From contig NZ_CP108538.1 of the NCBI RefSeq assembly GCF_035994185.1, positions 8,249,501-8,313,500 of the forward strand: a stretch of DNA of 64,000 bases, written 5' to 3'. Every line of letters begins with the position of its first letter. The stretch's first letter is position 1. Shown here in pieces: positions 6,815 to 18,047 of this stretch. The DNA is from Streptomyces sp. NBC_01217. Lineage in GTDB: Bacteria > Actinomycetota > Actinomycetes > Streptomycetales > Streptomycetaceae. Under the pieces are notes generated by a model. That model ran no database searches. It had not been told where the DNA came from and saw only the letters and a list, made by a program, of their open reading frames with translations. The position numbers were made by a program, and so were the translations under genes.

Positions 6815-7408
6815 TCACCAGCCGGCGGACGGTCCGGTCAGCTCCCTGATCGCAGGCCGTGCGGCATCCAGCACCGTCATGAACCAGGCCGAGAACGGTG
6901 CCCGGGCATGCTGCTCGGCGAGCTCTTCCGCCGTCACGAACGCGGTCTCGCCGACCTCCTCCGGGTCCGGGTGCAGCCCGTCCTGCGCCATGCCCACGAA
7001 GAGATGGTTGAATTCCTGCTCCACCAGACCGGAGGCCGGGTCGGGGTGGTTGTAGCGGACCGTGCCCGCCTCGGCCAGCAGGGAGGGCGAGACCCCCAGC
7101 TCCTCGTGCGTACGCCGGGCGGCGGCGGCGAAGGGCGCCTCACCCGGGTAGGGGTGGCCGCAGCAGGTGTTCGACCAGACACCGGGGGAGTGGTACTTGC
7201 CGAGCGCGCGGCGCTGCAGCAGCAGCCTGCCCTGCTCGTCGAAGAGGAACACCGAGAAGGCCCGGTGCAGTTGACCGGGCGGCTGATGGGCGGCGAGCTT
7301 CTCCGCCGTACCGATGGTGGTGCCGTTCTCGTCGACCAGTTCGAGCATGATCGCTTCTGCTGTGCCGTTCGACGAGCTGTTCGCCGCGGTGGCTGGTGTG
7401 GTCGGCAT
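6815..7408 (-). CDS. idi: Isopentenyl-diphosphate delta-isomerase, type I
   Basis: 197-aa Nudix-fold IDI-1 that interconverts isopentenyl and dimethylallyl diphosphate in the cytoplasm. Visible motifs are the active-site cysteine region GVWSNTCCGHPYPGE, the Nudix-box remnant AARRTHEELGV and the metal/glutamate region EQEFNHLFVG. Two ATGs lie 6 bases apart; GAAGG is 6 bases from the second (7408) but touches the first (7414), so I prefer 7408. It is not in the hopanoid operon 11 kb away but supplies the same C5 pool; in S. coelicolor idi likewise sits close to the hopanoid cluster. It is convergent with the RsbW-like gene. Confidence 0.95.
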   Translation of the reverse strand: MPTTPATAANSSSNGTAEAIMLELVDENGTTIGTAEKLAAHQPPGQLHRAFSVFLFDEQGRLLLQRRALGKYHSPGVWSNTCCGHPYPGEAPFAAAARRTHEELGVSPSLLAEAGTVRYNHPDPASGLVEQEFNHLFVGMAQDGLHPDPEEVGETAFVTAEELAEQHARAPFSAWFMTVLDAARPAIRELTGPSAGW

Positions 7409-7511
7409 ACCCATCCTTCGCTATGGTCCCGGCCTCGTGCGCCGGTCCCGTCGAGTCCGGTCAAGTCTGCCGTACAAAAGCCGCTTGCCCGCACTTCGGG
7501 TCCTGGCATGT

Positions 7512-9711: not shown

Positions 9712-9741
9712 CCTGACCTGCGGAAATGGCTGCAGGTCAGG
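9712..9741 (-). terminator. Terminator hairpin overlapping the galE stop
   Basis: Perfect 10-bp inverted repeat CCTGACCTGC / GCAGGTCAGG (9712-9721 and 9732-9741) with a 10-base loop. It includes the galE stop codon at 9737-9739. Confidence 0.5.
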
Positions 9742-10753
9742 ACTGTGGGGCGATCACCGACGGCTCAGTTGCCGCGCACGTCGGCCTGGGGGGGTGGTGC
9801 AGGCACCAGCCCTCCCAGGCCGACTCGACCATTTCGCGTACCCCGCGCCGGGCCGTCCAGCCCAGCTCCTCGGACATCCGGGCGGCGGACGCGACGGCCT
9901 TCGCCGCATCGCCGGGGCGGCGCGCCTCGATCTCCGGCTTCTGCGGCCGGCCGCTGACCTCGCCCACCAGATCGGCGAGCTCACGCACCGAGACGCCCTC
10001 GCCGCGGCCGATGTTCACGGTCAGGTCCCCGGCGTCCTGCCGGGCCATCTTCCGGGCGACGGCGAGATGCGCGTCGGCGAGGTCCGCGACATGGATGTAG
10101 TCGCGGATGCAGGTGCCGTCGGGCGTCGGGTAGTCGTCACCGAAGATCCGGGGGGCCTCGCCGCGGGTCAGCCGGTCGAAGAACATCGGAATCACATTGA
10201 AGACACCGGTGTCCGACAGTTCCGGCGCGGCCGCCCCGGCCACGTTGAAGTAGCGCAGACAGCCGGTGGACAGCCCGTGCGCCTTACCGGTCGCCCGGAC
10301 CAGCCACTCCCCGGCGAGCTTCGTCTCACCGTACGGATTGATCGGGACACAGGGAGTGTCCTCGGTGATGAGTTCCACATCCGGTACGCCGTATACCGCG
10401 GCCGAGGACGAGAACAGAAAGCGCCGCACGCCGGCCGCGACGACGGCCTCCAGCAGGACGGTCAGCCCGGCCAGGTTCTCCCGGTAGTACAGCAGCGGCT
10501 TCTCGACGGACTCGCCGACCTGCTTCTTCGCTGCGAGATGCACCACACCGGTCACGGCGTGCTCGGTCAGCACCCGGTCGAGCAGCCCGCGGTCGGCGGC
10601 CGAGCCCCGGACCAGCGGCACATCGGCCGGCAGCCGCTCGGCGACACCGGTCGAGAGGTCGTCGAGGACGACCACCCGCTCACCGGTCCCCACCATGGAC
10701 CGCACCACATGTGCACCGATATATCCCGCTCCGCCTGTGATCAGCCATGTCAT
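9737..10753 (-). CDS. galE: UDP-glucose 4-epimerase
   Basis: 338-aa extended short-chain dehydrogenase that interconverts UDP-glucose and UDP-galactose using bound NAD. Visible are the NAD motif TGGAGYIGAHVV at the N-terminus, the catalytic Ser in FSSSAAVYG, the Y-x3-K pair in NPYGETKLAGE, and the GalE-typical CLRYFNVAGA and CIRDYIHVADLADAH blocks. The ATG at 10753 gives the exact family N-terminus (MTWLITGGAGY); no strong ribosome-binding site is visible. It is divergent from the CDP-alcohol phosphotransferase operon and may supply UDP-galactose (or GalNAc) to the glycosyltransferase there. It ends in a hairpin. Confidence 0.93.
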   Translation of the reverse strand: MTWLITGGAGYIGAHVVRSMVGTGERVVVLDDLSTGVAERLPADVPLVRGSAADRGLLDRVLTEHAVTGVVHLAAKKQVGESVEKPLLYYRENLAGLTVLLEAVVAAGVRRFLFSSSAAVYGVPDVELITEDTPCVPINPYGETKLAGEWLVRATGKAHGLSTGCLRYFNVAGAAAPELSDTGVFNVIPMFFDRLTRGEAPRIFGDDYPTPDGTCIRDYIHVADLADAHLAVARKMARQDAGDLTVNIGRGEGVSVRELADLVGEVSGRPQKPEIEARRPGDAAKAVASAARMSEELGWTARRGVREMVESAWEGWCLHHPPRPTCAATEPSVIAPQS

Positions 10754-10978
10754 GCGGGTCAGCCTAGGTCTATGACACCGCGTTTTGTCAGGCGAGGCGG
10801 TGTTCGACGATGATGATCGCGGGCGGCGCGCATGATGCCGGTCCACCCCGAACGGAGCATAAACGGGCAGTGAACTCCCGCTTCCGTTCATCCGATAGCC
10901 TCTGCCGACGTGCCGCCGGCCCGCTTGTGGGTCGCACAGTCGCGCGCCGACCCCGTCAGCACCAAGGAGTGAGTTCGT

Positions 10979-12805
10979 CTGTCGACCGCCATTCTCACCG
11001 GTGCGCCGGTGCCCGGATCGTCACTCGTGGACGATCTGCGGTCACTGGACTTCGACGTACAGATCGCCGCCGATGTGACCGAGGCCGCACGGCTGCTCTC
11101 GGCCGTCCCCGCCGACCGCCGCGTCGCACTGGTCGACCCCCGTTTCGTCGGCCACGTCCATGCCCTCAGGCTCGGACTGACCGACCCCCGCTTCCCCGCC
11201 GCCACCGTGCCCGGTGCGCTCACCGCGCAGCCCGAGGCGCGCCCCGCGCTCGTCCGCGCCCTGAGCGCCACGGCCGCGGCCGTCGGCGCGGGCGCTCCCA
11301 CCGGCGCGACGACGGCGACGGTCACCGACCGCACCGTGCCCGGCCGCCTCGCCGCCACCATGGACGCCGCGGGCACCGCCGTGCAGCGCCCCGAGCTCGG
11401 CTCGCTGGTCGCCGCCGTGCCGGCCGACGACTCCGCGCGCACCACCGCGCAGAGCGCCGTCGACGCGGTCGACGAGGAGGCGGTACGGCTGCGCAGCGCC
11501 GTGAAGGCCCACGACGGCTTCTTCACCACGTTCTTCATCAGCCCGTACTCCCGCTACATCGCCCGCTGGTGCGCCCGCCGCGGCCTCACCCCGAACCAGG
11601 TCACCACCGCGTCCCTGCTCACCGCGTTGATCGCGGCGGGCAGCGCGGCGACCGGCACCCGCGGCGGCTACATCGCCGCCGGACTGCTGCTGCTGTTCTC
11701 CTTCGTCCTGGACTGCACCGACGGGCAGCTCGCCCGCTACTCGCTGCAGTACTCGACGATGGGCGCCTGGCTGGACGCCACCTTCGACCGGGCCAAGGAG
11801 TACGCGTACTACGCGGGCCTCGCGCTCGGCGCCGCCCGTGGCGGCGACGACGTCTGGGCACTGGCCCTCGGCGCGATGGTGCTCCAGGCCTGCCGCCATG
11901 TCATTGACTTCTCGTTCAACGAGGCGAACCACGACGCGGTGGCCAATTCGAGCCCCACGGCGGCCCTCTCCGACCGGCTGGACAGCGTCGGCTGGACGGT
12001 CTGGCTGCGCCGGATGATAGTGCTGCCGATCGGCGAGCGCTGGGCGATGATCGCGGTGCTGACCGCGGTGACCACGCCCCGGATCGTCTTCTACGCCCTG
12101 CTCATCGGCTGCGCCTTCGCGGCCTGCTACACCACCGCGGGCCGCCTGCTGCGCTCGCTGACCCGCAAGGCGGAGCGCACCGACCGCGCCGCCCGGGCAC
12201 TGGCCGACCTCGCCGACTCCGGACCCGTCGCCCAGATCGTGGCGGCACGGGGCCCCCGGATCGGGGGCGCCTGGAGCGCACCGGTGATCGCGCTCGTCGG
12301 CGCGGGGGCACTGATCGCCGCCGCTACGCAGCAGCCGTTCGGCAGTGTGCAGATGATCTTCGCTGCGGTGTTCTACGCGATCTGCTCGGGCATCGCCGTG
12401 GCCCGCCCCCTCAAGGGCGCCCTCGACTGGCTCGTACCGCCGATATTCAGGGCGGCGGAGTACTGCACCATCCTCGTTCTCGCCGCCCGCAGCGATGTCC
12501 CCGGAGCCCTTCCCGCGGCCTTCGGGCTCGTCTCGGCCGTCGCCTACCATCACTACGACACGGTGTACCGCATTCGCGGCGGCACCGGCGCGCCGCCCCA
12601 GTGGCTGGTACGCGTGATCGGTGGGCACGAGGGCCGAACCCTGGTGGTGGCCGTACTCGCCGCCGTACTCACTCAGCATTCAGCGTTCACCGTGGCACTC
12701 ACCGCCCTCGCGGTGGCTGTGGCGCTGGTGGTGCTCGTGGAGTCCATCCGCTTCTGGGTGTCCTCCAAAGCACCCGCCGTTCACGACGAAGGAGAACCCG
12801 CATGA
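10979..12805 (+). CDS. CDP-alcohol phosphotransferase with N-terminal extension
   Basis: About 608-aa membrane enzyme. Residues ~1-175 are a soluble region of unknown fold, followed by the CDP-alcohol phosphotransferase core with the complete signature D-x2-DG-x2-AR-x8-G-x3-D-x3-D (DCTDGQLARYSLQYSTMG then AWLDATFD) and about eight more hydrophobic segments. Such enzymes move a phospho-alcohol from CDP to an acceptor alcohol at the membrane. Start: AAGGAG at 10964-10969 points to a CTG at 10979 (LSTAILTG), because an in-frame TGA at 10970 rules out anything further upstream; the conventional alternative is GTG 11009, which has no ribosome-binding site. The stop overlaps the next gene (ATGA). 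First gene of the seven-gene operon. Confidence 0.82.
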   Translation: MSTAILTGAPVPGSSLVDDLRSLDFDVQIAADVTEAARLLSAVPADRRVALVDPRFVGHVHALRLGLTDPRFPAATVPGALTAQPEARPALVRALSATAAAVGAGAPTGATTATVTDRTVPGRLAATMDAAGTAVQRPELGSLVAAVPADDSARTTAQSAVDAVDEEAVRLRSAVKAHDGFFTTFFISPYSRYIARWCARRGLTPNQVTTASLLTALIAAGSAATGTRGGYIAAGLLLLFSFVLDCTDGQLARYSLQYSTMGAWLDATFDRAKEYAYYAGLALGAARGGDDVWALALGAMVLQACRHVIDFSFNEANHDAVANSSPTAALSDRLDSVGWTVWLRRMIVLPIGERWAMIAVLTAVTTPRIVFYALLIGCAFAACYTTAGRLLRSLTRKAERTDRAARALADLADSGPVAQIVAARGPRIGGAWSAPVIALVGAGALIAAATQQPFGSVQMIFAAVFYAICSGIAVARPLKGALDWLVPPIFRAAEYCTILVLAARSDVPGALPAAFGLVSAVAYHHYDTVYRIRGGTGAPPQWLVRVIGGHEGRTLVVAVLAAVLTQHSAFTVALTALAVAVALVVLVESIRFWVSSKAPAVHDEGEPA

Positions 12806-13539
12806 TCGGCCTCGTACTGGCAGCCGGTGCAGGACGGCGTCTGCGCCCCTACACCGACACGCTTCCGAAGGCCCTCGTGCCTGTAGACGGCGACAAGACG
12901 GTCCTGGACCTCACGCTGGCCAACTTCGCGGAGATCGGTCTCACCGAGGTGGCCGTCGTCGTCGGCTACCGCAAGGAAGCGGTGTACGACCGCAAGGCCG
13001 AGCTCGAAACGAAGTACGGCGTGAAGCTCACCCTGATCGACAACGACAAGGCCGAGGAGTGGAACAACGCCTACTCCCTGTGGTGCGCCCGTGAGGTCCT
13101 GACGCGCGGTGTCATCCTGGCCAACGGCGACACCGTCCACCCCGTCTCCGTCGAGAAGACCCTGCTCGCCGCCCGCGGCGACGGCCGGAAGATCATCCTC
13201 GCCCTCGACACGGTGAAGCACCTCGCCGACGAGGAGATGAAGGTCATCACCGAGGGCGACAAGGGTGTGCGAAGCATCACCAAGCTGATGGACCCGGCCA
13301 CCGCGACCGGCGAGTACATCGGCGTCACCCTCATCGAGCCCGAGGCCGCGGCCGAGCTCGCCGACGCGCTCAGGGCGACGTTCGAACGCGACCCCGACCT
13401 GTACTACGAGGACGGCTACCAGGAGCTCGTGAACCGCGGCTTCACCGTCGACGTGGCCCCCATCGGGGAAGTGACGTGGGTCGAGATCGACAACCACGAC
13501 GACCTCGCGAAGGGCCGTGAGATCGCGTGCCAGTACTGA
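12802..13539 (+). CDS. Nucleotidyltransferase (phosphocholine/sugar-phosphate cytidylyltransferase-like)
   Basis: 245-aa NTP_transferase fold with the signature LAAGAGRRLRPYTDTLPKAL at the N-terminus, an uncommon WNNAYSLWCAR block and the metal-binding aspartate in ILANGDTVHP. It resembles the phosphocholine/2-aminoethylphosphonate cytidylyltransferase branch more than long RmlA-type enzymes. It most likely activates a phospho-alcohol or sugar phosphate to a CDP derivative, the donor needed by the flanking CDP-alcohol phosphotransferases; that link is inferred from context. The ATG at 12802 overlaps the upstream stop, and its own 3' end overlaps the next gene by 13 bases, so it is translationally coupled on both sides. 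Confidence 0.85.
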   Translation: MIGLVLAAGAGRRLRPYTDTLPKALVPVDGDKTVLDLTLANFAEIGLTEVAVVVGYRKEAVYDRKAELETKYGVKLTLIDNDKAEEWNNAYSLWCAREVLTRGVILANGDTVHPVSVEKTLLAARGDGRKIILALDTVKHLADEEMKVITEGDKGVRSITKLMDPATATGEYIGVTLIEPEAAAELADALRATFERDPDLYYEDGYQELVNRGFTVDVAPIGEVTWVEIDNHDDLAKGREIACQY

Positions 13540-14588
13540 CCCGGCTCATCCCGTCCCCGGTCGTCGTCGACATCCGCCGCGGCGCCCTGGACGACCTGGC
13601 CGGCCTCCTCGCCGACCAGCGGATCTCCAACTCGGGCAGGCTTGCCATCGCCATAAGCGATGGCTCGGGGCGGGCGCTGCGCGAGAAGCTCTCGCCGGTC
13701 CTGCCCGGAGCGGACTGGTACTCCGTGGCCAGCGGCAACATCGACGCGGCTGTGAAGCTGGCCGACGACATCAAGGGCAAGCGGTACGACGCCGTGGTCG
13801 GCCTCGGCGGCGGCAAGATCATCGATGTCGCGAAGTACGCCGCGGCCCGGGTCGGCCTGCCATTGGTCTCCGTCGCCACGAACCTCGCCCACGACGGCCT
13901 GTGCTCGCCGGTCGCGACGCTGGACAATGACAACGGCCGTGGCTCGTACGGTGTCCCGACGCCGATCGCGATGGTCATCGACCTTTCTGTCATCCGCAAT
14001 GCCCCGGACCGTTTCGTACGCTCCGGCATCGGTGACGCGATCTCCAACATCTCGGCGATCGCCGACTGGGAACTCTCGCACCAGGTCAATGGCGAGCAGA
14101 TCGACGGACTCGCCGCGGCCATGGCCCGTACGGCGGGCGAAGCCGTCCTGCGCCACCCCGGCACCGTTGCCGACGACGAGTTCCTCACTGTCCTCGCCGA
14201 GTCGCTCGTGCTCTCAGGCATCGCGATCTCGATCAGCGGGGACACCCGCCCGTCGTCCGGCGCCTGCCACGAGATCAGCCACGCCTTCGACCTGCTCTTC
14301 CCCAAGCGGGCCGCGAGCCACGGAGAGCAGGTCGGCCTCGGCGCTGCCTTCGCGATGCATCTGCGCGGAGCCCATGAGCAGTCCGGGCTGTTCTCCCACG
14401 TACTGCGCCGCCACGGTCTGCCCGTCCTGCCCGAAGACATCGGCTTCACCGCCGACGAGTTCGTCCAGGCCGTCGACTACGCCCCGCAGACCCGCCCGGG
14501 ACGCTTCACGATCCTGGAACACCTCAACCTGTCCACCGACCAGATCAGGGACGCGTACGCCGACTATGCCAAGACCATCAGTAGCTGA
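13527..14588 (+). CDS. sn-Glycerol-1-phosphate dehydrogenase-like iron/zinc alcohol dehydrogenase
   Basis: 353-aa protein of the dehydroquinate synthase/group III alcohol dehydrogenase fold. VGLGGGKIIDVAKYAA is the nucleotide-binding block and SVATNLAHDGLCSPVATL matches the S-H-D-G-x-x-S-P motif of G1P dehydrogenases (archaeal EgsA, Bacillus AraM). Metal ligands are probably the Asp/His in LAHDG plus SGACHEISHAFD and ASHGEQVGLG. The expected reaction is reduction of dihydroxyacetone phosphate to sn-glycerol-1-phosphate; a related phospho-ketone is possible. No PcrB-type prenyltransferase, the usual partner for G1P, is nearby. It starts at GTG 13527 inside the previous gene and overlaps the next by 23 bp. 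Confidence 0.85.
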   Translation: MPVLTRLIPSPVVVDIRRGALDDLAGLLADQRISNSGRLAIAISDGSGRALREKLSPVLPGADWYSVASGNIDAAVKLADDIKGKRYDAVVGLGGGKIIDVAKYAAARVGLPLVSVATNLAHDGLCSPVATLDNDNGRGSYGVPTPIAMVIDLSVIRNAPDRFVRSGIGDAISNISAIADWELSHQVNGEQIDGLAAAMARTAGEAVLRHPGTVADDEFLTVLAESLVLSGIAISISGDTRPSSGACHEISHAFDLLFPKRAASHGEQVGLGAAFAMHLRGAHEQSGLFSHVLRRHGLPVLPEDIGFTADEFVQAVDYAPQTRPGRFTILEHLNLSTDQIRDAYADYAKTISS

Positions 14589-15351
14589 ACTCCGTCCGGT
14601 CGTTCACCCGGACGGAGTGAAGGACCGGCGCAGCGGTGAGCACTGGGCCGGGCGCATGTACATGCGGGAGATCTCGCTGCACATCGACCCGTACCTGGTG
14701 AACACGAAGATCACGCCGAACCAGCTCACCTACCTCATGGTGGTCGTGGGCGTCATCGGCGGCGCCGCCCTGCTGATCCCGGGGCTGACCGGCGCGATCC
14801 TCGCGGTCGTGCTGTTCCAGATCTATCTCCTGCTCGACTGCGTCGACGGAGAGGTCGCCCGCTGGCGCAAGCAGACCTCGATCACCGGTGTCTACCTGGA
14901 CCGGATAGGCCACTACCTCTGCGAGGCGGCCCTGCTGGTCGGCTTCGGCATCCGGGGTGCGGACGTCTTCCACCAGAACGGCACCGCGGCGAACTGGCTG
15001 TGGGCGTTCCTCGGGACGCTCGCCGCGCTCGGCGCGATCCTGATCAAGGCCGAGACCGACCTGGTCGACGTCGCCCGTCAGCGCAGCGGACTGCCCGCGG
15101 TCAAGGACGAGGCCTCCGTGCCGCGCTCCTCCGGTCTGGCGCTCGCCCGCCGTGGCGCCGCCGCGCTGAAGTTCCACCGTCTCGTCGGCGGCATCGAGGC
15201 CAGCCTCTTCATCCTGGTGGCCGCGATCCTCGACGTGGTCCACGGCGACCTGTTCTTCAGCCGCCTCGGCATCGCGATCCTGGCCGGCATCGCCATCGTC
15301 CAGACCCTGCTGCACCTCGTGTCGATCCTGGCGTCGAGCAGGCTGAAGTGA
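14566..15351 (+). CDS. CDP-alcohol phosphotransferase with altered fourth motif residue
   Basis: 261-aa integral membrane protein with the CDP-alcohol phosphotransferase core and about six hydrophobic segments. The motif reads DCVDGEVARWRKQTSITG, then VYLD, then RIGH: the last aspartate of D-x2-DG-x2-AR-x8-G-x3-D-x3-D, the presumed catalytic base, is histidine here. Either this is a subfamily using His, or it is a binding or non-standard enzyme. It begins at ATG 14566 inside the upstream gene (23-bp overlap) and ends in a GTGA overlap with the glycosyltransferase. With the first phosphotransferase it gives the operon two enzymes of this fold, suggesting two successive phosphodiester-forming steps. 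Confidence 0.85.
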   Translation: MPRPSVAELRPVVHPDGVKDRRSGEHWAGRMYMREISLHIDPYLVNTKITPNQLTYLMVVVGVIGGAALLIPGLTGAILAVVLFQIYLLLDCVDGEVARWRKQTSITGVYLDRIGHYLCEAALLVGFGIRGADVFHQNGTAANWLWAFLGTLAALGAILIKAETDLVDVARQRSGLPAVKDEASVPRSSGLALARRGAAALKFHRLVGGIEASLFILVAAILDVVHGDLFFSRLGIAILAGIAIVQTLLHLVSILASSRLK

Positions 15352-16232
15352 GCACCCCCATGAAGCTCGGCGCGGTCATCATCACGATGGGCAACCGCCC
15401 TCAGGAGCTGCGCTCCCTCCTCGATTCGGTCGCCGGGCAGAAGGGCGACCGGATCGAGGTGGTGGTCGTCGGCAACGGCGCCCCCGTACCGGACGTCCCC
15501 GCAGGTGTACGCACCGTCGAGCTGCCCGAGAACCTCGGCATCCCCGGCGGCCGCAATGTCGGGATCGAGGCGTTCGGCCCGTCCGGCGCCGATGTGGACG
15601 CCCTGCTCTTCCTCGACGACGACGGACTGCTGCCGCTCGACGACACCGCCGAGCTGTGCCGGCAGGCGTTCGAGGCCGACCCCGAGCTGGGCATCATCAG
15701 CTTCCGCATCGCCGACCCCGACACCGGTGTCACCCAGCGCCGCCACGTGCCGCGGCTGCGCGCCTCCGACCCGATGCGCTCCTCGCACGTGACGACCTTC
15801 CTCGGCGGCGCCAACGCCGTACGCAGCAAGGTCATAGCCGAGGTCGGACCGCTGCCCGGCCAGTTCTTCTACGCGCACGAGGAGACCGATCTCGCCTGGC
15901 GGGCACTGGACGCCGGCTGGAGGATCGACTACCGCGCGGACATGGTCCTCAACCACCCGACGACCGCCCCCTCGCGGCACGCGGTGTACCACCGCATGGT
16001 GGCCCGCAACCGGGTCTGGCTGGCACGGCGCAATCTGCCCGCGCCGCTTGTTCCCCTCTATCTCGGCGTGTGGCTGCTGCTGACCCTGCTGCGCAAGCCC
16101 TCCGGCCCGGCCCTGAAGGCATGGCTCGGCGGCTTCCGGGAAGGCTGGTCCACGCCGTGCGGGACCCGCCGCCCGATGAGGTGGCGTACGGTATGGCGGC
16201 TGACCAGACTGGGCCGACCTCCCGTGATCTGA
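15348..16232 (+). CDS. Family 2 glycosyltransferase
   Basis: 294-aa GT-A fold glycosyltransferase with no obvious transmembrane anchor except a hydrophobic patch near residues 230-245. Key features are AVIITMGNRPQELRSLLDS at the N-terminus, the metal-binding triad LLFLDDDGLL, and the acceptor-site acidic block YAHEETDLAWRALDAGW with the ED/ET-type catalytic base. The motif ENLGIPGGRNVGIE is typical of rhamnosyl- or galactofuranosyl-like GT2 enzymes. It probably adds a sugar to the lipid or polymer made by this operon. GTG 15348 overlaps the upstream stop; ATG 15360 is an alternative. The divergent galE may supply its donor. Confidence 0.88.
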   Translation: MSTPMKLGAVIITMGNRPQELRSLLDSVAGQKGDRIEVVVVGNGAPVPDVPAGVRTVELPENLGIPGGRNVGIEAFGPSGADVDALLFLDDDGLLPLDDTAELCRQAFEADPELGIISFRIADPDTGVTQRRHVPRLRASDPMRSSHVTTFLGGANAVRSKVIAEVGPLPGQFFYAHEETDLAWRALDAGWRIDYRADMVLNHPTTAPSRHAVYHRMVARNRVWLARRNLPAPLVPLYLGVWLLLTLLRKPSGPALKAWLGGFREGWSTPCGTRRPMRWRTVWRLTRLGRPPVI

Positions 16233-16339
16233 GAAGCTCTCCTCTGAGAACATGAGTCGTATGTTTCCGCTACGGGACCTGTCCGCTCCGAGCCGCGCCC
16301 GCGACTGGCTGCGCATCTTGAATACGAGAGTTTCATCTG

Positions 16340-17269
16340 GTGAGTGACACAACCCACGACGGCGCGGTCGCACTGAGCACCGCACCGTCCGCCGACGAAG
16401 GCCTGAGCGCGGCCGAGACGGCCGCCAAGTACGGCCTGACGGTGAGCGGCGCCCGGCCGGGGCTCTTCGAGTACATCCGGCAGCTCTGGGGCCGCCGCCA
16501 CTTCATCCTGGCGTTCTCCAGGGCGAAGCTGACCGCCCAGTACAGCCAGGCGAAGCTCGGCCAGCTGTGGCAGGTGGCCACGCCGCTGCTCAACGCCCTG
16601 GTCTACTACCTGATCTTCGGGCTGATCCTGGGCACCAGGAAGGGAATGAGCCAGGAGGTCTTCATCCCGTTCCTGGTGACCGGCGTCTTTGTCTTCACCT
16701 TCACCCAGAGCTCGGTGATGGCGGGTGTGCGGGCCATCTCGGGCAACCTGGGACTGGTCAGGGCGCTGCACTTCCCGCGCGCCTCGCTGCCCGTCTCGTT
16801 CTCGCTGCAGCAGCTCCAGCAGCTGCTGTACTCGATGATCGTGCTGGCGGTCGTGGCCGTCTCCTTCGGCAGCTATCCGAGCCCCTCCTGGCTGCTGATC
16901 ATTCCGGCGCTGGCCATGCAGTTCCTCTTCAACACCGGCCTGGCACTGATCATGGCCAGGCTCGGCAGCAAGACCCCCGACCTCGCCCAGCTGATGCCGT
17001 TCGTCATGCGGACCTGGATGTACGCGTCGGGCGTCATGTTCTCCATCCCGGTGATGCTCAAGGACAAGCCGGCCTGGATCGCCGACGTGCTCCAGTACAA
17101 CCCGGCGGCCGTCTACATGGACCTGATCCGCTTCGCGCTGATCGACGGTTACGGATCGAGCAATCTGCCCGCGCACGTCTGGGTCGTGGCGCTCGGCTGG
17201 TCGGTCCTCGTCGGCATCCTGGGCTTCGTGTACTTCTGGAAGGCAGAGGAACGGTACGGCCGTGGCTGA
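16340..17269 (+). CDS. ABC-2 type polysaccharide/teichoic-acid exporter, permease
   Basis: 309-aa inner-membrane permease of the TagG/Wzm class, with six hydrophobic segments after a ~45-residue cytoplasmic N-terminus. The first cytoplasmic helix (LWGRRHFILAFSRAKLTAQY) and the block AKLGQLWQVATPLLNALVYY are characteristic of the family. It should move an assembled lipid-linked glycan or polyol-phosphate across the membrane with the ATPase encoded next. The start is GTG 16340. The 107-bp gap upstream is the only sizeable gap in the operon and could hold an internal promoter. It overlaps the ATPase gene by 8 bp. Confidence 0.9.
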   Translation: MSDTTHDGAVALSTAPSADEGLSAAETAAKYGLTVSGARPGLFEYIRQLWGRRHFILAFSRAKLTAQYSQAKLGQLWQVATPLLNALVYYLIFGLILGTRKGMSQEVFIPFLVTGVFVFTFTQSSVMAGVRAISGNLGLVRALHFPRASLPVSFSLQQLQQLLYSMIVLAVVAVSFGSYPSPSWLLIIPALAMQFLFNTGLALIMARLGSKTPDLAQLMPFVMRTWMYASGVMFSIPVMLKDKPAWIADVLQYNPAAVYMDLIRFALIDGYGSSNLPAHVWVVALGWSVLVGILGFVYFWKAEERYGRG

Positions 17270-18047
17270 CGACAACACTCCGGGGCGCGTCCCCACCGTC
17301 ATCGCCGACGATGTGCACATCGTGTACAGGGTCAACGGCGCCGGCGGAGGCAGGGGCAGTGCCACCGCGGCGCTGAGCCGGATACTGCGCCGCGGCAAGG
17401 GCGAGCCGCGCGGGGTGCGGAAGGTGCACGCCGTCCGCGGCGTCTCCTTCACCGCGTACCGCGGCGAGGCCATCGGCCTCATCGGGACCAATGGTTCCGG
17501 CAAGTCGACCCTGCTGCGGGCCATCGCCGGTCTGCTGCCGACCGAGCACGGCAAGGTGTACACCGACGGCCAGCCGTCGCTGCTCGGCGTGAACGCGGCA
17601 CTGATGAGCGATCTGACCGGCGAGCGCAACGTGGTGCTCGGCGGTCTCGCGATGGGCATGTCGCGCGAGGAGATCCGCGAGCGCTACCAGGGCATCGTCG
17701 ACTTCTCCGGAATCAACGAGAAGGGCGACTTCATCACCCTGCCGATGCGGACCTACTCCTCCGGCATGGCCGCCCGGCTGCGTTTCTCCATCGCCGCCGC
17801 GAAGAACCACGACGTCCTCATGATCGACGAGGCGCTGGCGACCGGTGACCGCAAGTTCCAGATCCGCTCCGAGAAGCGCATCAGGGAGCTCCGCAAGGAA
17901 GCGGGCACCGTCTTCCTGGTCAGCCACAGCAACAAGTCCATCAGGGACACCTGCGACCGGGTTCTGTGGCTGGAAAAGGGCGAGCTGCTGATGGACGGTC
18001 CGACGGACGAGGTCCTCAAGGCGTACGAGCGCGAGACCGGGAAGTAG
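17262..18047 (+). CDS. ABC-2 type polysaccharide/teichoic-acid exporter, ATPase
   Basis: 261-aa ATP-binding subunit of the TagH/Wzt class. Walker A is IGTNGSGKSTLLRA near residue 75, the signature motif is the degenerate TYSSGMAARLRFS, Walker B is VLMIDEALATGD and the switch histidine is in FLVSHSNKS. It lacks the C-terminal carbohydrate-binding extension of Wzt proteins that read capped O-antigens, so export probably does not depend on cap recognition. The start is GTG 17262, overlapping the permease by 8 bp. Last gene of the operon; it is followed by a strong hairpin. Confidence 0.92.
   Translation: MADDNTPGRVPTVIADDVHIVYRVNGAGGGRGSATAALSRILRRGKGEPRGVRKVHAVRGVSFTAYRGEAIGLIGTNGSGKSTLLRAIAGLLPTEHGKVYTDGQPSLLGVNAALMSDLTGERNVVLGGLAMGMSREEIRERYQGIVDFSGINEKGDFITLPMRTYSSGMAARLRFSIAAAKNHDVLMIDEALATGDRKFQIRSEKRIRELRKEAGTVFLVSHSNKSIRDTCDRVLWLEKGELLMDGPTDEVLKAYERETGK

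Follow-up and report, generated by a model that had tools for sequence, protein, structure and literature searches.

Gene Organization of the Locus

Comparative analysis of a 64,000-nucleotide stretch of the 9.03 Mb genome of Streptomyces sp. NBC_01217 (contig NZ_CP108538.1, positions 8,249,501 to 8,313,500; hereafter the window) identified a block of seven genes on the + strand (11009-18047) that is a candidate for the supply and transfer of glycerol phosphate to a surface polymer. A first-pass annotation had described seven overlapping or closely spaced genes, including two cytidine diphosphate (CDP)-alcohol phosphotransferases, and all seven were confirmed, with Pfam support for their families. 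The first gene encodes a CDP-alcohol phosphotransferase with a C-terminal DUF5941 domain (CAP1, 11009-12805; PF01066, PF19365), followed by an NTP_transferase-family nucleotidyltransferase (NT, 12802-13539; PF00483) that profile and Foldseek comparisons, along with its invariant pairing with the next gene, mark as a predicted cytidine triphosphate (CTP):glycerol-1-phosphate cytidylyltransferase. The third gene codes for an Fe-ADH_2 protein of the sn-glycerol-1-phosphate dehydrogenase (G1PDH) type (ADH, 13527-14588), predicted to convert dihydroxyacetone phosphate (DHAP) to sn-glycerol-1-phosphate (G1P), and the fourth for a second CDP-alcohol phosphotransferase carrying a His for the fourth Asp of the family motif (CAP2, 14617-15351, a start that we chose; PF01066, with solved relatives 4o6m and 4mnd). 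The block is completed by a GT2 glycosyltransferase (15360-16232; PF00535), an ATP-binding cassette (ABC)-2 permease of the TagG/Wzm type (16340-17269; PF01061), and an ABC ATPase of the TagH/Wzt type (17262-18047; PF00005). Neighboring genes overlap by 4, 13, and 8 nt or are separated by gaps of 28, 8, and 107 nt, which would fit a single transcript. An alternative CTG start of CAP1 is possible at 10979, with an in-frame stop at 10970.

Upstream of the block lies a divergent galE on the - strand (9737-10753), the start of which explains why the range given in the first-pass annotation began at 10753. The galE gene is present here as described, but it was directly upstream in only 38 of the 70 full-length Streptomyces loci and is not a constant companion of the block.

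Conservation of the Block

Dehydrogenase relatives in named genomes numbered 243, and the best 80, which were used here, were all from Streptomyces with 82-93% identity. All seven genes were present in 78 of these 80 loci, the other two being shortened loci without a GT2 match, and the order CAP1-NT-ADH-CAP2-GT2-permease-ATPase-hpnC was kept in 70/70 full-length loci, answering in the affirmative the earlier question of whether the set is conserved as a block. Second close copies of the dehydrogenase were identified in the Streptomyces genomes G143 (75% identity) and G116 (72%), the former also carrying two NT copies.

A class sample of 196 genomes was examined for the ADH and NT pair, defined by ADH matches at E<=1e-50 (48 genomes, hereafter pair genomes) and NT matches at E<=1e-30 (47 of these 48). 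Outside Streptomyces, loci of 20 kb where the contig allowed were taken from 28 of the 29 other pair genomes (G176 was left out), and these contained ADH (28), NT (27), CAP2 (22), CAP1-like (21), GT2 (20), ABC permease (15), and ABC ATPase (14) genes. For the 28th locus (genome G067), NT lies on the same contig at a distance of approximately 10 kb, beyond the stretch taken. The core outside Streptomyces is the pair of NT (27/28) and ADH (28/28), accompanied by some CDP-alcohol phosphotransferase in 26/28 loci, namely CAP2 in 22 and full-motif enzymes in L116, L123, L125, and L135; a motif and similarity search of loci L130 and L131 revealed no such enzyme. Two loci (L116 and L125) displayed a bare triad of NT, ADH, and CDP-alcohol phosphotransferase.

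In a phylum sample of 296 genomes, NT was identified at E<=1e-25 in 21, of which eight were outside the class. The block was recognizable in six of those eight loci, including L161, where all seven genes are present in unchanged order, while L167 and L168 were remote; no ADH match was found within the stretch examined of L165. The remote NT relative of L167 (35% identity; L167:4997-10682) is encoded approximately 3 kb from genes resembling those of G1PDH and CDP-alcohol phosphotransferase, next to aromatic-pathway-like genes.

The genes downstream of the block, from 18488, read in translation as two squalene/phytoene-synthase-like genes, an oxidoreductase, a polyprenyl synthase, and a squalene-hopene-cyclase-like gene, followed by more hopanoid and methylerythritol phosphate-type genes also named from their translations. 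A Nudix-type protein encoded upstream (6815-7414, - strand) reads, again in translation, like an isopentenyl-diphosphate isomerase. The block might add a polar head group to the hopanoids of the downstream genes, given that hpnC follows it in 70/70 full-length Streptomyces loci, but no hopanoid gene match was found in the 28 class loci or in six loci from outside the class, making this role the most doubtful of those considered.

The Dehydrogenase and Nucleotidyltransferase

By both profile and fold, ADH grouped with the G1PDHs of archaea (EgsA) and with AraM of Bacillus subtilis above all other listed dehydrogenases, and glycerol dehydrogenases were more distant from it than G1PDHs, which is consistent with its earlier description as a G1PDH homologue. 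Residues D123, H248, and H265 were invariant in 19 sequences and aligned with MjG1PDH; we take this Asp/His/His set to be the metal ligands of the enzyme. The motif reported for ADH as SHDG reads AHDG in its own sequence, while SHDG does occur in several orthologues. The absence of a PcrB-type enzyme holds for the whole genome (0 matches) and extended to the 48 pair genomes (0/48) and all 19 Streptomyces sampled, with none over the cut-off in the 196 class genomes. A G1PDH-PcrB route to prenyl ethers was rejected given the lack of PcrB in the genome and in the pair genomes.

The nearest solved structures of NT were LicC, IPCT, and PntC, at ranks 1-3 in both profile and Foldseek comparisons. 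This placement beside CTP:phospho-alcohol cytidylyltransferases supports the earlier label of a cytidylyltransferase-like enzyme, and CpgD is a further known relative (PMC12275187). The substrates of LicC, IPCT, PntC, and CpgD are phosphocholine, inositol-1-phosphate, 2-aminoethylphosphonate, and phosphoglycerate, respectively, and use of G1P is not reported for any of them in the literature examined.

The CDP-Alcohol Phosphotransferases

Both phosphotransferases matched PF01066 (cut-off 22), with 38.2 bits for CAP1 and 41.9 bits for CAP2. CAP1 has the complete D-DG-AR-G-D-D motif including the fourth Asp, as do 90/114 sequences; the remaining 24 lack the motif or do not cover it. Its N-terminal extension (11009-11500) had no Pfam match and is poorly conserved outside Streptomyces. 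CAP2 was the only CDP-alcohol phosphotransferase motif found in nine non-Streptomyces loci (L114, L117, L127-L129, and L139-L142), and the CAP1-like match of L117, the one tested among these nine, consisted of DUF5941 alone. Where CAP2 is the sole such enzyme, either it works without the fourth Asp or a partner is encoded elsewhere.

The nearest solved relatives of both proteins were the archaeal AF2299 (4o6m) and IPCT-DIPPS (4mnd), in which a nucleotidyltransferase is likewise paired with a CDP-alcohol phosphotransferase; the block differs in having these as separate genes and in adding a dehydrogenase, a GT2 enzyme, and an exporter. CAP1 also bore a weak resemblance to phosphatidylinositol-phosphate synthases (50.8 bits against a cut-off of 170; also 6h53), and the two enzymes might on this basis use CDP-diacylglycerol. 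The product would then be an atypical phospholipid or phosphoglycolipid whose head group derives from G1P and which the ABC pair would export or flip. We consider this improbable: NT, which together with ADH forms the invariant pair, would have no function in such a scheme, the nearest solved relatives of both phosphotransferases are AF2299 and IPCT-DIPPS, and the pair co-occurs with PF04464 polymerases as described below.

Association With Teichoic Acid Genes

The best NCBIfam match of the ABC ATPase was TagH among the 181 families listed (174 bits), below the equivalog cut-off of 320. The block permease and ATPase were 66% and 77% identical, respectively, to the ABC pair of a PF04464 cluster (L146) in the same genome; of the six PF04464 matches in this genome, the five listed lie at 3.458-3.474 Mb beside that ABC pair. 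Neighbors in the 28 non-Streptomyces loci, with representatives assigned by Pfam and the others by similarity to these representatives, included LCP-type (21), IspD-like (17), GDPD (11), and TagF-like PF04464 (8) proteins. In a small control of four loci around remote ADH paralogues, LCP, IspD-like, GDPD, and PF04464 genes were all absent and an ABC ATPase match was present in 2/4.

Across the class sample, PF04464 at E<=1e-3 was identified in 47/48 pair genomes versus 46/148 others (p 5e-18, kinship being ignored here and in the following tests), with G083 as the sole pair genome without a match. The contrast was sharper for strong PF04464 matches (47/48 versus 24/148, p 4e-26) and remained without Streptomyces (28/29 versus 24/148, p 3e-17) and when PF04464 was counted by genus (18/19 versus 15/62, p 3e-8). 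The opposite held for strong TagD-type matches, which scored 109-165 bits and so fell short of the curated cut-off (165.4): they occurred in 0/48 pair genomes versus 15/148 others. Among the 71 genomes with strong PF04464, they were found in 0/47 with the pair versus 8/24 without it (p 7e-5), or by genus in 0/18 versus 4/15 (p 0.03). The NBC_01217 genome had no TagD at the TIGR01518 cut-off of 165.4, the best match reaching 66.6 bits, and a canonical TagD-dependent CDP-glycerol route was rejected for it on this score. That best match is a PF01467 cytidylyltransferase-like protein (L147:5915-6364) in an apparent exopolysaccharide cluster.

These associations bear on a further alternative, that the product is a soluble phosphodiester solute formed in the way that IPCT-DIPPS forms di-myo-inositol phosphate. 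The family resemblance to IPCT and DIPPS favors it and the triad of L116 and L125 would be enough for it, but GT2 (20/28 loci), the exporter permease (15/28), and LCP (21/28) have no role in solute synthesis, nor does it account for the co-occurrence with PF04464, and we regard it as very unlikely.

In five loci (L113:2970-6354, L119, L120, L121, and L126), an IspD-SDR fusion resembling TarIJ and a divergent PF04464 protein adjoin CAP1, an arrangement that suggests a parallel supply of ribitol and glycerol. The wall polymer of S. griseus is described as ribitol phosphate with terminal glycerol phosphate (PMC13274773).

Proposed Pathway

From the gene content, conservation, family and fold placement, and co-occurrence observed here, we infer the substrates and reactions, their stereochemistry, the acceptor, and a wall or lipoteichoic product. 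The block would supply and transfer units for a surface polymer of the teichoic acid type that contains glycerol phosphate, via G1P and CDP-glycerol of the sn-1 series, a reading of the sequence comparisons to which we give a probability of roughly one half. ADH would reduce DHAP to G1P, and NT would join G1P to CTP to give sn-1 CDP-glycerol, from which the membrane proteins CAP1 and/or CAP2 would move glycerol-1-phosphate to a membrane-bound acceptor. GT2 may decorate or extend this acceptor, and the TagGH-like exporter would release the product to the outside, where it would be attached to the wall or anchored by a lipid. The TagF-like polymerases encoded elsewhere probably draw on the same CDP-glycerol, and therefore ADH and NT would stand in for TagD. 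The first-pass annotation had proposed the sequence of G1P, CDP-activated form, phosphodiester transfer, glycosylation, and export, which appears to be the most economical account of one conserved module often accompanied by a TagGH-type exporter. Its product, given as a surface polymer or phosphoglycolipid, is narrowed here to a teichoic acid-type polymer, the TagF-like, LCP, and GDPD proteins and the TagGH paralogues speaking against a free-standing polymer or phosphoglycolipid of a new kind.

Several observations weigh against this pathway. ADH scored 236 bits against the cut-off of 413 of the NCBIfam G1PDH equivalog PRK00843/NF002022 and is therefore called G1PDH-type rather than filed under that family; this score and the lack of a PcrB/GGGPS partner in its own genome and the 48 pair genomes distinguish it from EgsA and AraM. 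The NT family takes varied phospho-alcohols, sugar-1-phosphate enzymes score near IPCT and LicC in VIA-align, and no product formed when the relative CpgD was offered glycerol-1-phosphate (PMC12275187). In CAP2, the fourth Asp of the motif is replaced in 119/119 sequences (by His in 38, including the one here, and by Ala in 81), and the exporter permease was found in only 15/28 non-Streptomyces loci. The co-occurrence statistics, besides ignoring kinship, used strong cut-offs chosen after the data had been seen; both the pair and strong TagD are absent from 16 genomes with strong PF04464, and weaker TIGR01518 matches (E<=1e-3) occur in 83/196 genomes, including 12/19 Streptomyces. Two proteins resembling TarIJ, with 67% and 58% identity to that of L113, are also encoded in the NBC_01217 genome, and its own TagF-like enzymes may therefore use CDP-ribitol; a ribitol route probably coexists in this genome.

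Some of these points would fit a pathway of the same kind with another alcohol, in which the substrate of ADH would be a keto-phosphate other than DHAP and the product of NT a different CDP-alditol or CDP-alcohol, destined for a teichoic-acid-like polymer. The fold of NT does not reveal its substrate, LicC, IPCT, PntC, and CpgD acting on different phospho-compounds, ADH falls under the equivalog cut-off, and the teichoic acid context would be unchanged. The position of ADH with archaeal G1PDHs and AraM above the other listed dehydrogenases and the GDPD (glycerophosphodiester) genes near 11/28 loci argue for glycerol instead, and another alcohol is judged unlikely, if a serious contender.

Relation to Known Systems and Implications

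The glycerol wall teichoic acid (WTA) system of B. subtilis (TagD, TagF, and TagGH) resembles the proposed pathway in its CDP-glycerol donor, TagGH-type export, and the presence of TagF-like polymerases in the same genomes. It differs in that the donor of the block would come from G1P and an NTP_transferase-fold enzyme, with integral-membrane CDP-alcohol phosphotransferases involved; TagD differs in fold and forms CDP-glycerol from sn-Gro-3-P (PMC7086022). According to the same source, B. subtilis WTA is built of Gro-3-P from CDP-glycerol and its lipoteichoic acid (LTA) of Gro-1-P from phosphatidylglycerol; the LtaS product is also a polymer of sn-Gro-1-P, with the G1P unit taken from phosphatidylglycerol (PMC7086022). 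The enzyme GlpQ removes Gro-3-P, and does so at free ends only (PMC7086022). The unusual stereochemistry earlier ascribed to the product does not stand in that form, since ordinary LTA is built of sn-Gro-1-P (PMC7086022) and this unit is not foreign to bacterial surface polymers; the novelty would lie in CDP-activated G1P. CDP-glycerol in vivo is described as sn-3 only and the sn-1 form as “nonnatural,” and the TagF-like Cps7D and Cps3D take both hands in vitro (PMC5974469). The different origins of the WTA and LTA units, the sn-3 form in vivo, and the tolerance of these polymerases make the stereochemical point a sharp one.

In open-licence papers, no publication was recognized as assigning a pathway to the block. 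A syntenic Streptomyces region with crtB, tagH, tagG, and araM is by its description the same gene block, and the available text lists cluster numbers for it and relates it to teichoic acid biosynthesis, without substrate, pathway, or stereochemistry (PMC13118837). The gene set, for which the first-pass annotation had allowed that a pathway might already be assigned, has thus been seen before as a region and not as a pathway. Other reports state that S. hygroscopicus makes polyglycerol-phosphate LTA and that clear LtaS orthologues are missing in actinobacteria (PMC3196553), that Bifidobacterium bifidum has an annotated ltaS homologue (PMC12286996), and that actinobacterial G1PDH is counted among archaeal-type lipid genes in work on the lipid divide, Streptomyces being one of the genera said to include species with the full set of three such genes (PMC6431249).

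We tentatively suggest, at somewhat less than even odds, that glycerol phosphate of actinobacterial wall and/or lipoteichoic acids derives from G1P via CDP-glycerol of the hand opposite to that of Firmicutes. The pair would then be a non-homologous replacement of TagD that gives rise to glycerol teichoic acid of mirror-image form. It could account for LTA in the absence of LtaS, and would make the “archaeal-type” G1PDH a cell-wall rather than a membrane-lipid enzyme. An enzyme pair making sn-1 CDP-glycerol would, if confirmed, be new, and the block is a concrete candidate for the origin of LTA in Streptomyces without a clear LtaS. If true, this reading would explain the role of the archaeal-type dehydrogenase in these bacteria, and a teichoic acid role of G1PDH in PcrB-less genomes would change how the lipid-divide evidence is read.

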